The position numbers and the translations under genes were made by a program. A DNA stretch of 25,355 nucleotides from a virus, in the IMG/VR virus record IMGVR_UViG_3300046713_000298, positions 1 through 25,355 of that record; one strand, 5' to 3'. The notes under the pieces are model-generated. The model did no database searches, was not told the origin of the DNA, and was given only the letters and a program-made list of their open reading frames with translations. Each line of letters begins with the position of its first letter. Position 1 is the stretch's first letter. Below, piece by piece: positions 3,580-25,355 of the stretch.

Positions 3580-5004
3580 TCAGGCCGCCATCAGCCGCTC
3601 GTCGACCCACCCGACCTCGACGCAGATCGCAATCGTCCCGTACCGGAGTGAGTCGGCGGCGTGCTTGAGGTCGTCGTCCTTCCCGCTCCAGTACGACAGG
3701 GCGTCGTGGACCCGCCCGCACTCCGAGGTCACGATCTGGAGCGACGGCGACGACCAGCCGTCGAGCTCGGCGGTGTGGTCGAGGAGCTGGTTCACGCGGG
3801 CCACCTGCGACTCGACGCTGTCAGGGCCCTTGAGGGCACGCCGGAACAGGATCTTCGGCTGGTCCGGCTTGCGGCCCTGGAGCTTCGCCAACTCCTGCTC
3901 GAACAGCTCGTTCATGCTGCGCGCGCCCTCGCTCTTGCCCGCCGAGTTGGTGTCGCCGACGGCCCACGACACGTGCTCGAGCTCGAGTCCCGCCGCGCGC
4001 ACCATGTCCCGGACGGCCCGCGCCTCCCGCTCCACGGACATCCGCTCCGGGTTCGTCCACTCGCTCAGGACCCGGATCACCGCCTCGGTCCGGCCGCCGA
4101 TCTGCACCGGCTGGTAGGCGAGCAGCGTCCAGTGGCTGTGTCCCGCCCCTTCGCCGTGGTCGACCGACAGGCAGACGTAAACCCGCCCCGAGCGAGGCCA
4201 GCCGACCCGGAGGTCGTGCACCAGGAGCTGGTTGCGGTCGCTGTACCCGGTGAAGCACCGGTCGATCGCCACGCCTTCCCACGCGCCCTCGATCCGCTGG
4301 CGGTAGCTCCAGGGCTGCCGCGCCGCCTCGCGGATCCGGTCCTGCACCTGCTCCTCGGTGTACCAGGGGCAGTTCGCCGCGGACAGGCCGATCTGGTGGA
4401 AGGTCCAGTCGCCGGCCTGCACCCCGTCCTCGACGATCGCGCGCAGCCACTTGACCGGTCGGTTCACCGCCGTGAACGTCATCCACACCCAGCCGTCCGT
4501 GTCGAACACGCGGGCCAAGGCTTCCTCGAAGTGGCCGGGCGGCGGGGGCTCGTCGAGCAGCACGCCGTGCAGCGACGCCGATGCCATCGCATCGGGGCGC
4601 TGTTCGTACGAGTTGAGCTGGATCGTCGACCCGCCGACCGTCACCGCCTTGTTCCCGTGGGTGAACCCCCGCGCCGAGTCCCACCGCGACCCCCGCTCGA
4701 GGTGCCCGCGCAGGAAGTGTTCGAGGTAGCGACCGTGGGTGTCGTTCATCAGCTTGTTCGTCGGCGCCATGATCCGCAGCCGCACGGGCTCGCTGGCTCG
4801 GTCGGCGAGGATCGCGGCCAGCGCCACCTTCGCGATGGCGTGGTAGGTCTTGCCCGTTCTGTTGGCGGCCAGTACGCAGGACCGGCGCGCGTCCTCCTCG
4901 TAGAACGCGCGCAGCCCCGGGGACGGCGTGAACAGCAGCCGAGGCCGATCCTGGGGAACGCGACGGAGCCGACGGGCCGCGCGACGAGCGGCGGCGGAGA
5001 TCAC
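3580..5004 (-). CDS. terL: Terminase large subunit
   Basis: A 474-residue packaging motor: an ATPase that translocates DNA into the prohead and a nuclease that cuts the concatemer. Walker A is LAANRTGKT (45-53). Walker B is VLLDEP (148-153). WVWMTFTAV (172-180) is the coupling motif. The C-terminal RNase H-like nuclease has D282 (CLSVDHGEG), D351 (AVGDTNSAGK) and the H448/D451 pair (LKHAADSLRYG). GTG 5004 overlaps the portal stop as GTGA, so it is probably translated by coupling; I see no strong Shine-Dalgarno. The frame is open much further upstream, but that portion is antisense noise over the portal gene. Unusually, it lies on the strand opposite to terS. Confidence 0.92.
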   Translation of the reverse strand: MISAAARRAARRLRRVPQDRPRLLFTPSPGLRAFYEEDARRSCVLAANRTGKTYHAIAKVALAAILADRASEPVRLRIMAPTNKLMNDTHGRYLEHFLRGHLERGSRWDSARGFTHGNKAVTVGGSTIQLNSYEQRPDAMASASLHGVLLDEPPPPGHFEEALARVFDTDGWVWMTFTAVNRPVKWLRAIVEDGVQAGDWTFHQIGLSAANCPWYTEEQVQDRIREAARQPWSYRQRIEGAWEGVAIDRCFTGYSDRNQLLVHDLRVGWPRSGRVYVCLSVDHGEGAGHSHWTLLAYQPVQIGGRTEAVIRVLSEWTNPERMSVEREARAVRDMVRAAGLELEHVSWAVGDTNSAGKSEGARSMNELFEQELAKLQGRKPDQPKILFRRALKGPDSVESQVARVNQLLDHTAELDGWSSPSLQIVTSECGRVHDALSYWSGKDDDLKHAADSLRYGTIAICVEVGWVDERLMAA

Positions 5005-6701
5005 CGGCCGGGCGGACCCGGGGGCGGCCCGCCCCCGAGGCCCGGACCGGGGAGCACGTGGATCGGGGCGGGCGGAGGCGGTGGCGTGGTCGGCTGGAAG
5101 GCGGGCGTACCCGCCGAGCCGAGCAGCTTGGCGGCGGTCTCCGGGTTGACCGCCCCCGCCCACTGCACGAGCGCGAGTCCGGCGTCGCGCGGCAGCAGGC
5201 CCGCACCCACGTCCTCGATGATCTGGAGCAGGCTCGCGGTCTGGCGGCCGTCGGGCGCCGCGTCCTGCGCCGTGCCCGCCAACGCGGCGAGGGTCTGGGC
5301 CCGGAGCTGTTCCATCTGCTTCCGGGTGTCGAGCGCGAGGATATCGGCCTGCGCGTCGTCGAGGTCGGTGCCGGGGTGCAGCTCCTGGTACGCCATGGCG
5401 CGGTCCATGAGCCCGCGATCCATCTCCTGCCCGATCCACTCGTCGACCGTCTTGCGCTCGTCGGCGGTGAGCGCCACGCCGGCGTACCGGGCGCGGAAGC
5501 CCTTCGCGGAGCACGACACGCCCCAGCCGCGGTTGACGGCTGCGACCACCTCCGCGAGCTGCACGTCGCCGAGCCGGAAGTGGACGAGGTCCCGCAGCGC
5601 GACCCGCCGCTTCCCCGCCTGGCTGACGGTGATCGAGGCGCCGGACGCCGGGCTCAGCGACTCGATCGCGACGTCCGACGGGCTGAGGTCGAAGTGGACC
5701 GCAAGGCCGTTCTGGTAGTAGCGGACGGTCTGCTCGGCCGCCACGATGTCGATGCTGGCGCCCCACGCACCGACCTCGACGTTGCCCGAGCCGGTGCCTT
5801 CGAGCTCGAGCACCGCGGTGGGGTCGGGCGTGATCAGCCGCACCGGGTGATCGCCGGCCTTGGCGGTCGCGCCGCCCCGTACGCGCGCGTTCGCGATCCA
5901 CCGCTGGTCCCAGCCCGCCCTCAGGAAGCCGTGGACCATGCCGGTCCACATGAGCCCCACCTGCAACGTGCCGAACGCGATCTCCTGGTGCTGGTGCGGG
6001 TGCCAGACGCCGTTCCCCTGCCCGGCCGAGTGGTACAGCACCGCGGGCAGCACGGGGTTGCCCTGCTCGTCGCGGTACGGGTAGCTGGCGCCCTCCCAGG
6101 CGCCCGGGTCGGCGAACGCGGCCGTCACGTCGCGCTGGCGGTCGGCGGTCCAGACCGAGTAGCTGCCGACCCCAGAGGCGATGCTCCACCGGAACCAGAA
6201 CCACGCCTTCTCCGAGGGCCGACCGGGGATCGGGCGCTGGTCCGCGCGCCAGATCGTCACGGGTCGGCTGCGGTTCGTGGGCGCGGTCTCGACGGTCAGC
6301 AGGTCCGGCGTCACGAGGGAGAACGTCGGGTGTCCGAGGTCGCTGTCCCACCCCACGAACACCGCGGACTCGCGCAGGCCCTTGACGTAGCGCATGTGCT
6401 GGCGCGCCATCTGCCACCAACCGCCGCGCTGGAAGCTGTCGTCCAGTACCGCGGTGGTCCCGCCGCCGATCTGCGGCTGGGTGTCGTACATCGTGCTGGT
6501 CTGGTCGATGACCGAGCTGAACAGGTTCGCGCTGGTGTCCCACTCGCCGACGAGCGCCGCGCGCGCCGGGCCGAGTTGGCGCCACCCATGCTCCGCCAGC
6601 AACGGTCGCCACGTCCCTTCGAGCATCTGGCGCAGTCGCCAGGACTCGACGATCCGCTGCTGATCCTCGGCTGGCGTGACGAGCGGAAGCGGACCGTACA
6701 C
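5001..6701 (-). CDS. Phage portal protein
   Basis: A 566-residue protein forming the dodecameric DNA entry and exit ring at the capsid vertex. Support comes from size, adjacency to terL, and portal-like composition: an N-terminal helical region with ANLFSSVIDQTSTM, a mixed middle with repeated Trp/Tyr motifs (WFWFRWSIASG, YPYRDEQGNPVLPAVLYHS), and a long helical C-terminal part (TADERKTVDEWIGQEMDRGL onwards) ending in a Pro/Gly-rich tail. GTG 6701 is chosen because a GAGGGG lies just upstream on the minus strand. It is first in a two-gene minus-strand operon, portal then terL, the reverse of the usual terL then portal order. The portal family (SPP1 gp6-like or another) cannot be fixed by eye. 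Confidence 0.8.
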   Translation of the reverse strand: MYGPLPLVTPAEDQQRIVESWRLRQMLEGTWRPLLAEHGWRQLGPARAALVGEWDTSANLFSSVIDQTSTMYDTQPQIGGGTTAVLDDSFQRGGWWQMARQHMRYVKGLRESAVFVGWDSDLGHPTFSLVTPDLLTVETAPTNRSRPVTIWRADQRPIPGRPSEKAWFWFRWSIASGVGSYSVWTADRQRDVTAAFADPGAWEGASYPYRDEQGNPVLPAVLYHSAGQGNGVWHPHQHQEIAFGTLQVGLMWTGMVHGFLRAGWDQRWIANARVRGGATAKAGDHPVRLITPDPTAVLELEGTGSGNVEVGAWGASIDIVAAEQTVRYYQNGLAVHFDLSPSDVAIESLSPASGASITVSQAGKRRVALRDLVHFRLGDVQLAEVVAAVNRGWGVSCSAKGFRARYAGVALTADERKTVDEWIGQEMDRGLMDRAMAYQELHPGTDLDDAQADILALDTRKQMEQLRAQTLAALAGTAQDAAPDGRQTASLLQIIEDVGAGLLPRDAGLALVQWAGAVNPETAAKLLGSAGTPAFQPTTPPPPPAPIHVLPGPGLGGGPPPGPPGR

Positions 6702-23462: not shown

Positions 23463-23561
23463 TCACGGGGTGAGGCACCGGTAGACGACGTACAGCGCGA
23501 CCAGCACGACGAGTCACCCCACGACCACGATCGAGAGGTGCTCTCGTCGCTCGTCGCTCAC
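23463..23561 (-). pseudogene. Tiny single-pass membrane protein interrupted by in-frame TGA
   Basis: From GTG 23561 the minus strand reads MSDERREHLSIVVVG, then TGA (23516-23514), then LVVLVALYVVYRCLTP and a final TGA (23465-23463). Without the internal stop it would be a 32-residue protein with a charged N-terminus and one membrane helix that the stop cuts in half. The GTG overlaps the stop of the upstream minus gene as GTGA, the coupling style used by real genes in this genome. The likely explanation is a nonsense mutation or a base error; readthrough is less likely. Confidence 0.45.
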
Positions 23562-23833
23562 GGGCGCTCCGGACCGTACGTCCCCACGACGTACCCGTCG
23601 AGGCGGTCGAACAGCGGCGCCTCGGTGGGCTCCCCGAGGGCGCAGGCGCAGGTGCCCTGCTCGACGTCGACGACCCCGCGGCCTCCCTGGCCCGGGTGCT
23701 CGACCTCGACTGAGGCGCAGTGGTCTGCACAGGCCAACTGCACCGCCGCGCCGTACCCGGTGGCCTGTCGCCAGAGCCAGTAGGGCACCGTCGAAGCAAC
23801 CGTTAGAATCAGGAAGATCCGGACCACAGGCAT
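23558..23833 (-). CDS. Small membrane-anchored or secreted Cys protein
   Basis: A 91-residue protein from ATG 23833. The N-terminus MPVVRIFLILTVASTVPYWL is a signal anchor or uncleaved signal. The rest has four cysteines in two pairs (LACADHC, residues 35 and 39, and GTCACALG), suggesting disulfides outside the cytoplasm, and ends in FDRLDGYVVGTYGPERP. No ribosome site is strong; ATG 23848 and GTG 23872 are alternative starts. It is transcribed away from the AT-rich promoter region and is followed by an overlapping tiny membrane gene. Likely a moron-type envelope gene, but no family is recognised. Confidence 0.5.
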   Translation of the reverse strand: MPVVRIFLILTVASTVPYWLWRQATGYGAAVQLACADHCASVEVEHPGQGGRGVVDVEQGTCACALGEPTEAPLFDRLDGYVVGTYGPERP

Positions 23834-23872
23834 CGGGTGTCGATCCATCGACCAATCTGCTAACCGATCCAC

Positions 23873-23935
23873 TGCCGGATCCGCACTAACGATATATCGA
23901 CAGTTCGGCTATTATATCGACCAGCGGAGGTCAGC
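23873..23935. promoter_or_regulatory. Divergent AT-rich promoter region
   Basis: This lies between the minus-strand membrane gene and the plus-strand gene at 23936. It contains the palindrome CGATATATCG (23890-23899), a direct repeat TATATCGAC (23893-23901 and 23913-23921), and TATAAT on the minus strand (23916-23911), with TATTAT on the plus strand (23910-23915). The segment CGAC...TTATATCGAC (23898-23921) resembles 6737-6759 of the other divergent region. No -35 box is clear. GCGGAGG (23924-23930) is the ribosome site of the plus gene. Confidence 0.5.
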
Positions 23936-24217
23936 GTGGAATCTGCGATCCTGTCCGTGATCCCGGTCGAGTTCCTCCAGGAGCTCGCCGCGCAGGCGCT
24001 CCAGGAGCAGAAGCTCGCGGTCCCGGAGATCGTCGCCGAGCTCGTGGCGCTCACGATGCGCCTTGGGGTCCTCAAGCGGATCAAGGAGCCCTGGCGAACG
24101 GTGGTCGCCAAGTTCGAGAAGCAGCTCCTCACCTTCGCGATCTCGGAGATCGTCAAGGTGGCCGAGGACAAGCTGATCGCGGCTGGCCTGCTCCCCGCCC
24201 CGGCCCCGGCCGCCTGA
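23936..24217 (+). CDS. Small helical hypothetical protein
   Basis: A 93-residue protein starting at GTG 23936 behind GCGGAGG. It is almost entirely helical: FLQELAAQALQEQKLAVPEI, VAELVALTMRLGVLKRIKEP and KQLLTFAISEIVKVAEDKLI, ending in an Ala/Pro tail. No membrane segment or motif is recognised. It is first of a four-gene coupled run (to the window end) that includes the Tad2-like gene and membrane proteins. Its TGA overlaps the next ATG by one base. Confidence 0.65.
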   Translation: MESAILSVIPVEFLQELAAQALQEQKLAVPEIVAELVALTMRLGVLKRIKEPWRTVVAKFEKQLLTFAISEIVKVAEDKLIAAGLLPAPAPAA

Positions 24218-24567
24218 TGCACACCAAGACGACCGATGAGACCCTGCCGCCCCGCGACTTCGGCTGGGCGATCCGCGCGCTGAAGGCCGGTCACCGTGTG
24301 CGGCGAGCCGGCTGGAACGGGAAGGGGATGTGGATCGCGCTGACGCAGGGTCCGCACCTGCACCGCCACCCGACCTCCGCCGGCGACCCGACCGGTTGGA
24401 CCGGGCGGCTGAACGGCGCTGCTGCTGCGCTGCAGACCGCGGAGAGCCCCGACGAGATCCGCATCGGCGACCACATCGACATGCGCGCAGCCGACGGCTC
24501 CCTCGTGATCGGCTGGCTCGCGAGCCAGACCGACATGCTGTCCGAGGACTGGGAGTTGGTGATCTGA
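24217..24567 (+). CDS. tad2-like: Tad2-like (DUF2829) anti-Thoeris protein
   Basis: A 116-residue protein with both conserved blocks of the DUF2829 family. The N-terminal block starts FGWAIRALKAGHRVRRAGWN (15-34) and continues GKGMWIAL (35-42). The C-terminal block is IDMRAADGSLVIGWLASQTD (87-106) followed by MLSEDWELV (107-115). Phage Tad2 proteins of this family bind and sequester the gcADPR signal made by Thoeris ThsB, blocking that defence. A loop region (43-86) separates the blocks. ATG 24217 overlaps the previous TGA. Family recognition is strong from the blocks; anti-defence activity of this copy is inferred. DUF2829 proteins in general are often annotated as unknown. Confidence 0.8.
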   Translation: MHTKTTDETLPPRDFGWAIRALKAGHRVRRAGWNGKGMWIALTQGPHLHRHPTSAGDPTGWTGRLNGAAAALQTAESPDEIRIGDHIDMRAADGSLVIGWLASQTDMLSEDWELVI

Positions 24568-25055
24568 TGCGTCGCGTCCTCGCGATCGGTGCGGTGCTCG
24601 CGGGCATGCTGCTCCTGCTCGTCGCGATGTCGGCGCTCGCCGAGCCACCGCAGTGGCCTCCGCCGGAGGTGACGACCCAGCCGCACCCCGACCCGGCCGC
24701 CGCACCCCCGATCCCCCCCGCTGTGTCCACCGGCGCCCCGGCGGTGGACGCGGACACCACCGGGGCCGACTTCCTCGGATGGGTGACGGTCCTGCTCAAG
24801 CTCGCGACGGCGTTCGGAGCCGGCGTGGGCTCGGGCGGGCTCGGCTACCACCTCACTTGTCGTCGGGACCAGCTCTCGCTCAGCCGCGGGCCGATGGATC
24901 TCGACGCCCTCAAAGCGCAGCTCGACCGGATCGAGCAGCGCCTGGAGTGGATACCAGCGGAGATCCCACCGTCCCGCTCCCCGCCGCGTCCCGCGGACCT
25001 GCCCGCGCCGCTGCCCCTTCCCGCAGCGCAGCCCACCATCGTGACGCCGCTGTGA
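24567..25055 (+). CDS. Two-segment membrane protein with signal peptide
   Basis: A 162-residue protein coupled to the Tad2-like gene by TGATG overlap. A basic start MRR is followed by a hydrophobic stretch (4-22) and a possible signal-peptidase site after SALA (25). A Pro-rich linker (27-52) leads to a second membrane segment, FLGWVTVLLKLATAFGAGVG (69-88), followed by a basic turn CRRD, a helix DLDALKAQLDRIEQRLEWIP (111-130) and a Pro-rich tail. This could be a holin- or spanin-like lysis protein, but no lysin is in the window to support this. The ORF extends upstream out of any likely start; ATG 24567 is taken. Confidence 0.65.
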   Translation: MRRVLAIGAVLAGMLLLLVAMSALAEPPQWPPPEVTTQPHPDPAAAPPIPPAVSTGAPAVDADTTGADFLGWVTVLLKLATAFGAGVGSGGLGYHLTCRRDQLSLSRGPMDLDALKAQLDRIEQRLEWIPAEIPPSRSPPRPADLPAPLPLPAAQPTIVTPL

Positions 25056-25355
25056 TGCCGGGCTCCGATGTCCTCGAGCGGATCCGGGCGGAGCTCGGCG
25101 GGTCGGGGGCGCTCCAGGGGCCCGTCTACTCCCCGTCCGGCCGCGAGCTGACGTCGAGCGAGGCGGTGGAGTGGCGCGTCACTCGGGTGGACGCGAAGCT
25201 CGAGCTCATGATCGAGCTCGGGCGCGAGCCTCAGGCGACGCTCGGGATCCCCGACCTCCGGCCGGTGCCCGTGTGGGTGCAGGCGGCCGTGCTGTCGATC
25301 GGGGTGGGGCTGTTCGTGACGCAGGGGTTCGGCCTACTCGCGGTGCTGATCCTCT
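25055..25355 (+). CDS. Membrane protein, 3' partial
   Basis: Starts at ATG 25055, overlapping the previous TGA, and runs open off the window end (100 residues visible). The first 60 residues are soluble and helical (SDVLERIRAELGG, WRVTRVDAKLELMIELGR). Residues about 74-100 are hydrophobic (VWVQAAVLSIGVGLFVTQGF, then GLLAVLIL), one membrane helix or a hairpin. A lysis-module holin is possible given small size and position near the tail-lysis boundary, but this is a guess. The stop is not visible. Confidence 0.6.
   Translation, partial: MPGSDVLERIRAELGGSGALQGPVYSPSGRELTSSEAVEWRVTRVDAKLELMIELGREPQATLGIPDLRPVPVWVQAAVLSIGVGLFVTQGFGLLAVLIL

Follow-up and report, generated by a model that had tools for sequence, protein, structure and literature searches.

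Tad2 proteins are the closest described relatives of the gene reported here, and the ligands seen in their PDB entries are gcADPR isomers for SPO1 Tad2, 1',2'-cADPR and cGG for HgmTad2, cGG for SptTad2 and His-ADPR for ModTad2. The gcADPR pockets of Tad2 are built from two protomers by the loops b1-b2, b3-b4 and b4-a3 along with strand b4 and helix a3, and the cyclic dinucleotide (CDN) site lies in an insertion between b2 and b5 (PMC12043709). SPO1 Tad2 does not bind 3'3'-cGAMP (PMC11722364). Here we analyzed a window of 25,355 nucleotides, which is the whole stretch of DNA studied (positions 1 to 25,355 of the virus record IMGVR_UViG_3300046713_000298), and the following gene of this family was found in it:

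24217 to 24567, + strand: tad2-like gene, ATG...TGA, 116 aa, with PF11195 at residues 14-115

The Pfam search placed the protein in PF11195, the 'Thoeris anti-defense 2-like domain' formerly called DUF2829 (E 1.7e-23, 83.4 bits against a cut-off of 25, residues 14-115), and this score is far above chance. Conserved block 1 (residues 14-44, DFGWAIRALKAGHRVRRAGWNGKGMWIALTQ) and conserved block 2 (residues 88-115, DMRAADGSLVIGWLASQTDMLSEDWELV) are both intact, a tail of 12 residues is present at the N-terminus, and all 16 positions that are invariant in an alignment of 49 sequences are kept (A18, R30, G32, W33, N34, G35, G37, M38, M89, W100, S103, Q104, D106, L108, D111 and W112), 14 of them inside the two stretches assigned below to the pocket loops (30-38 and 99-112). 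The first-pass annotation had described an open reading frame with both DUF2829 blocks among small or membrane genes of no known family; the reading frame and its blocks were confirmed, and the description of the neighbours was borne out. PADLOC and NCBIfam gave no match for tad2 or the genes beside it. An independent contig of this phage (38 kb) encodes the same protein with 100% identity, and PHROGs assigns the protein to phrog_1048 and phrog_872, neither of which has an assigned function. It is an ordinary-looking member of the Tad2 family, the small proteins that soak up infection alarm molecules.

An alignment to Tad2 structures, proposed along with the annotation, was done at the level of both sequence and fold, and both match. 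The phmmer search against solved chains gave HgmTad2/AcrIIA7 at 4e-17, a second AcrIIA7 at 2e-15, SptTad2 at 1e-14 and SPO1 Tad2 at 4e-10, with the ModTad2 chains weaker and in two pieces (6-7e-9), and profile A1 gave 2.5e-31 to 5.5e-20 against the same solved Tad2 chains. An AF2 model of the monomer, built from the 49-sequence alignment, has a mean pLDDT of 80.6; the two conserved blocks score 90 or more for the most part, and the insertion between them about 57-65. When this model was searched with Foldseek, the best 24 matches were all Tad2 chains (E 3.2e-6 or better; the next match had E 0.8), and VIA gave Z 12.0-13.0 for ten Tad2 entries and at most 5.9 for any other entry. The closest solved chains carry the names AcrIIA7 or 'Inhibitor of Type II CRISPR-Cas system', and DUF2829 is found in AcrIIA7 (PMC6739104), which came from a functional anti-Cas9 screen (PMC6739867), so the protein could be read as an AcrIIA7-type anti-CRISPR against Cas9; but AcrIIA7 is the same protein as the solved sponge HgmTad2, holding 1',2'-cADPR and cGG, and we regard this reading as extremely improbable. 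The window protein is probably an immune-signal sponge, a reading well supported by its sequence and modelled fold. The annotation had called it a probable Thoeris signal sponge; the family and the sponge function stood on the Pfam search, the solved-structure matches and the fold, whereas gcADPR as the target is plausible rather than settled.

With the loop roles taken from PMC12043709 and the secondary structure as predicted, RAGWNGKGM (30-38) and GWLASQTDMLSEDW (99-112) were assigned as the conserved motifs that would line the gcADPR pocket. Pocket residues, whose loss was to be looked for, are retained in these motifs and in 16/16 invariant columns, as read at the level of loops rather than of single contacts. 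The a3 loop is SQTD, the same as in SPO1 Tad2, HgmTad2 and SptTad2, and SVSD in ModTad2; the WxPSVSD block of ModTad2 is absent from the window protein, which has WLASQTD instead. The ModTad2 fold is shared (Z 12.5) and ModTad2 binds His-ADPR (entry 9eib; PMC13299392), which would fit a family member that sequesters His-ADPR and counters type II Thoeris in the manner of ModTad2. We consider this quite unlikely, in view of the weaker two-piece match to the ModTad2 chains (6-7e-9) and of GWLASQTD standing where ModTad2 has TWTPSVSD, a thin contrast in which the part of the block in deciding the ligand is read from a single binder.

The distance between WNGxxM and WxxS, which measures the insertion, is 61 residues in the window protein, 60 in HgmTad2, 54 in SptTad2 and 42 in both SPO1 Tad2 and ModTad2. 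HgmTad2 and SptTad2, the two near the window protein in spacing, were both solved with cGG, and the short-insertion SPO1 Tad2 lacks 3'3'-cGAMP binding (PMC12043709, PMC11722364); these points favour a member of the same family whose main target is a cyclic dinucleotide (of CBASS, or cGG of TIR-STING), in which case the insertion would be the pocket that functions and gcADPR would be bound weakly or no longer. However, the residues of the gcADPR loops are fully conserved, the insertion is unlike that of HgmTad2 in sequence, being barely alignable to it and modelled with low confidence (pLDDT about 57-65), and many of the sampled sequences have long spacings too (at least 49 residues in 39/49 relatives), so that insertion length alone is weak evidence on the ligand. 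This alternative is given only tentative credit, and binding of cyclic dinucleotides by the modelled insertion is only a possibility. Taken together, SQTD and the long insertion favour a ligand of the gcADPR type, to which a cyclic dinucleotide may perhaps be added, and Thoeris gcADPR is the likeliest target by analogy with the solved proteins.

In a tree of 53 rows and 96 columns, the window protein and 41 uncharacterised phage proteins were separated from all four solved Tad2s across a branch of 91/91, a split that is unsure with so few columns and long branches; the sequences sampled were the closest relatives of the window protein and not a census of the family. Because no solved member lies on the window protein's side of this tree, transfer of the ligand by homology is uncertain. 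It is conceivable, though we think it rather unlikely, that members of the large phage/prophage clade of the window protein, which has no solved member here, have switched to another TIR- or cGAS-type signal, or that they bind two different signals at once, one in the conserved pocket and one in an insertion that evolved independently.

The window is part of a phage genome that is circular and about 37.9 kb long. Genome G001 (IMGVR_UViG_3300046782_000916) has an end repeat of 127 bp and is a circular permutation of the window's phage with 99.0-99.96% identity. The minus strand carries the large terminase subunit (phrog_2, 1.7e-18) and what is likely the portal (window 3580-6701); these point away from the genes presumed to encode capsid and tail, which run from 6783 onwards on the plus strand. 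The terminase has one weak phage match (30% over 38%, Cellulosimicrobium phage DS1) and no relative in cellular genomes, the putative capsid protein has no match among 50,697 phage records, the matches of ThyX are spread across many hosts, and no tRNAs were found in the phage genome. The lineage is far from cultured phages. Two sister phages were used for comparison, L091 (IMGVR_UViG_3300046812_000756) and L093 (IMGVR_UViG_3300046780_001027). The surroundings of tad2 are as follows:

23873 to 23935, + strand: AT-rich intergenic stretch before the operon, putative promoter/operator
23936 to 24217, + strand: helical protein of 93 aa with no family match, opening the operon, conserved in both sisters
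24567 to 25055, + strand: 162-aa membrane-anchored protein, directly downstream of tad2, conserved in the sisters
25055 to 25355, + strand: small membrane protein, cut at the contig end and complete in L002:5839-6153
L002:6156-6764, after the small membrane protein: peptidase-like protein in which the M15-type motifs SRHIQGLAID ... DAVHW were recognised by eye

Both junctions of tad2, with the 23936 gene and with the 24567 gene, are TGATG stop-start overlaps, and the junction after the 24567-25055 gene is TGTGATG. Downstream of tad2 in G001 there are two membrane proteins, the M15-peptidase-like protein and two more small membrane proteins, and the homologue in L091 has a weak endolysin match (E 0.012). 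From this gene content and the M15-type motifs, tad2 probably sits in a lysis operon. The genome is 71% GC, and the stretch at 23873-23935 is one of the few in it that are AT-rich; it is nearly identical in sister L091 and holds two copies of the direct repeat TATATCGAC, 20 bp apart and the only two in the 38-kb genome; no sigma-70 consensus was found there, and the stretch is a possible operator or promoter of the lysis operon. A small ORF at 23558-23872 (-), divergent from the tad2 operon, has an N-terminal hydrophobic segment and Cys residues and is conserved in L091.

The gene at 23936 has relatives in the two sisters at 75% and 64% identity, and relatives of the genes downstream of tad2 are also kept in L091 and L093. 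PF11195 has no match anywhere in the L091 and L093 contigs, which may be incomplete. Similarity of DNA to L091 extends as far as the final base of the stop codon of the gene before tad2 and is picked up again 13 bp inside the gene after it. The tad2 slot is occupied in the sisters (L091:5283-5482 and L093:413-615) by two mini-ORFs of 30-35 aa (VALATLLGWGVVAGVVGAFAGLVYAHLRGL; MDSTALERWVASIVVLCLGVALGVGVTCGIVWLLT) with one hydrophobic segment each, which look like membrane peptides. The slot of L093 also has an orphan Cys/Trp-rich gene of about 200 aa (L093:613-1215), for which Pfam, PADLOC and NCBIfam gave nothing, PHROGs gave no confident match, and IMG/VR gave no further copy; its position makes it a candidate for another cargo function. 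As the sisters keep the flanks, lack tad2 and have unrelated small genes in its slot, tad2 appears exchangeable and looks like a swappable counter-defence cargo.

The first-pass annotation had further suggested that this place may hold more anti-defence functions, with 23936 as a candidate. The variable position of tad2 in the sisters agrees with the general suggestion, but all three phages have kept the gene at 23936, which is therefore probably a core gene of the lysis region. A further anti-defence role is the less likely reading for it and was rejected, as it has no family match and is common to all three phages. Its product is helical in AF2, where the five models disagree (pLDDT 76 down to 43).

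Relatives of the Tad2-like gene are very common, being present in at least 595 of 599 candidate stretches in IMG/VR among the matches listed and in 191 cultured phage records, and the nearest ones (50-58% identity) include prophages, mostly of Alphaproteobacteria. In the annotated cultured phages examined, the junction at which the gene sits differs from phage to phage, and its neighbours are often genes for lysis, terminase, capsid or tail; this varying position fits a mobile cargo gene. The location of tad2 inside a probable lysis operon and these frequent terminase, capsid, tail and lysis junctions could also be taken as signs of a late virion-assembly or lysis accessory protein with no anti-defence role. 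Yet the gene is missing from two sister contigs that keep the flanking genes and so looks dispensable, its position varies between phages as that of cargo does, and the pocket residues are strictly conserved; an accessory role is, in our judgement, very unlikely.

Two further observations were made on the relatives. A domain of about 50 aa is fused to the front of many Tad2-like proteins, namely those of L009, L014, L017, L021, L022, L027, L035, L048, L054, L057, L062 and L063, with the consensus ..EYNxYRGWxxPxDENGxDEGYLVEYxDGGxxNHPxHAGYISWSPxxxFDNAYR; it is part of phrog_872, has no Pfam model and might serve as another binding part or in oligomerisation. In Escherichia phage Huey (PQ850609.1, 37079-38194) a Tad2-like gene and a second gene beside it, both annotated as anti-CRISPR, adjoin the lysis cassette; these labels probably derive from AcrIIA7 and might mislead.

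With good confidence, and by analogy with the solved members, we propose that the window protein is a Tad2-family sponge which would bind a nucleotide signal of the host TIR type, the likeliest being a gcADPR isomer from type I Thoeris. It would assemble as a homotetramer with two ligand pockets between dimers, like SPO1 Tad2 and HgmTad2, and would capture but not degrade what a TIR-type defence protein of the host produces, in pockets to which neighbouring protomers would contribute the RAGWNGKGM loop and the GWLASQTDM...DW loop and helix. The NAD-depleting effector would in this way be kept off during late infection, and the long insertion between the blocks may supply a second pocket for cyclic dinucleotides, by which CBASS could be blunted too. 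The position of tad2 in the operon suggests late expression, and this would suit Thoeris because its sensor ThsB1 recognises the major head protein (PMC12043709).

The analysis adds a well-supported Tad2-family gene to a phage lineage remote from cultured phages, and the comparison of three sister genomes indicates that such a gene can fill a swappable slot within a lysis operon. If the long-insertion clade binds both TIR and cGAS-type signals, sponges for two signals would be what the family usually looks like and not a special case. The gene as it stands makes a useful though ordinary annotation. What is added here to the first-pass annotation is the evidence for a cargo slot, the possibility of two signals and the lower standing of 23936.

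Among the known systems, HgmTad2 (AcrIIA7; PDB 8kbi-8kbm, 8wjc) is the best PDB sequence match, with 42% identity over 94 residues in VIA. It has the PF11195 fold, both blocks including GWLASQTDML and a long insertion (spacing 60 against 61 in the window protein), but the sequence of this insertion is unlike, it lies in another part of the tree, and the 12-residue N-terminal tail is the window protein's. SptTad2 (PDB 8wjd, with cGG) shares the fold (Z 13.0), 39% identity and the SQTD motif, whereas its insertion is seven residues shorter and it stands on a separate branch. SPO1 Tad2 (PDB 8sme/8smf/8smg) agrees in fold (Z about 12) and in the gcADPR loop motifs GWNGK.M and SQTD...EDW, and it differs in its short insertion (spacing 42), in WVPSQTD with no G before it and in not binding 3'3'-cGAMP (PMC11722364). 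ModTad2 (PDB 9eib, 8v3e) has the fold (Z 12.5-12.8) but carries SVSD in place of SQTD and a short insertion, and is a His-ADPR binder (PMC13299392). The phage relatives in phrog_872/phrog_1048 (such as Ruegeria phage 45A6 ANH49101.1 and Azospirillum/Rhodobacter prophage proteins) have the same blocks at 52-58% identity, and several of them differ from the window protein in having an extra N-terminal domain of about 50 aa (GYLVEYxDGG...GYISWSP).
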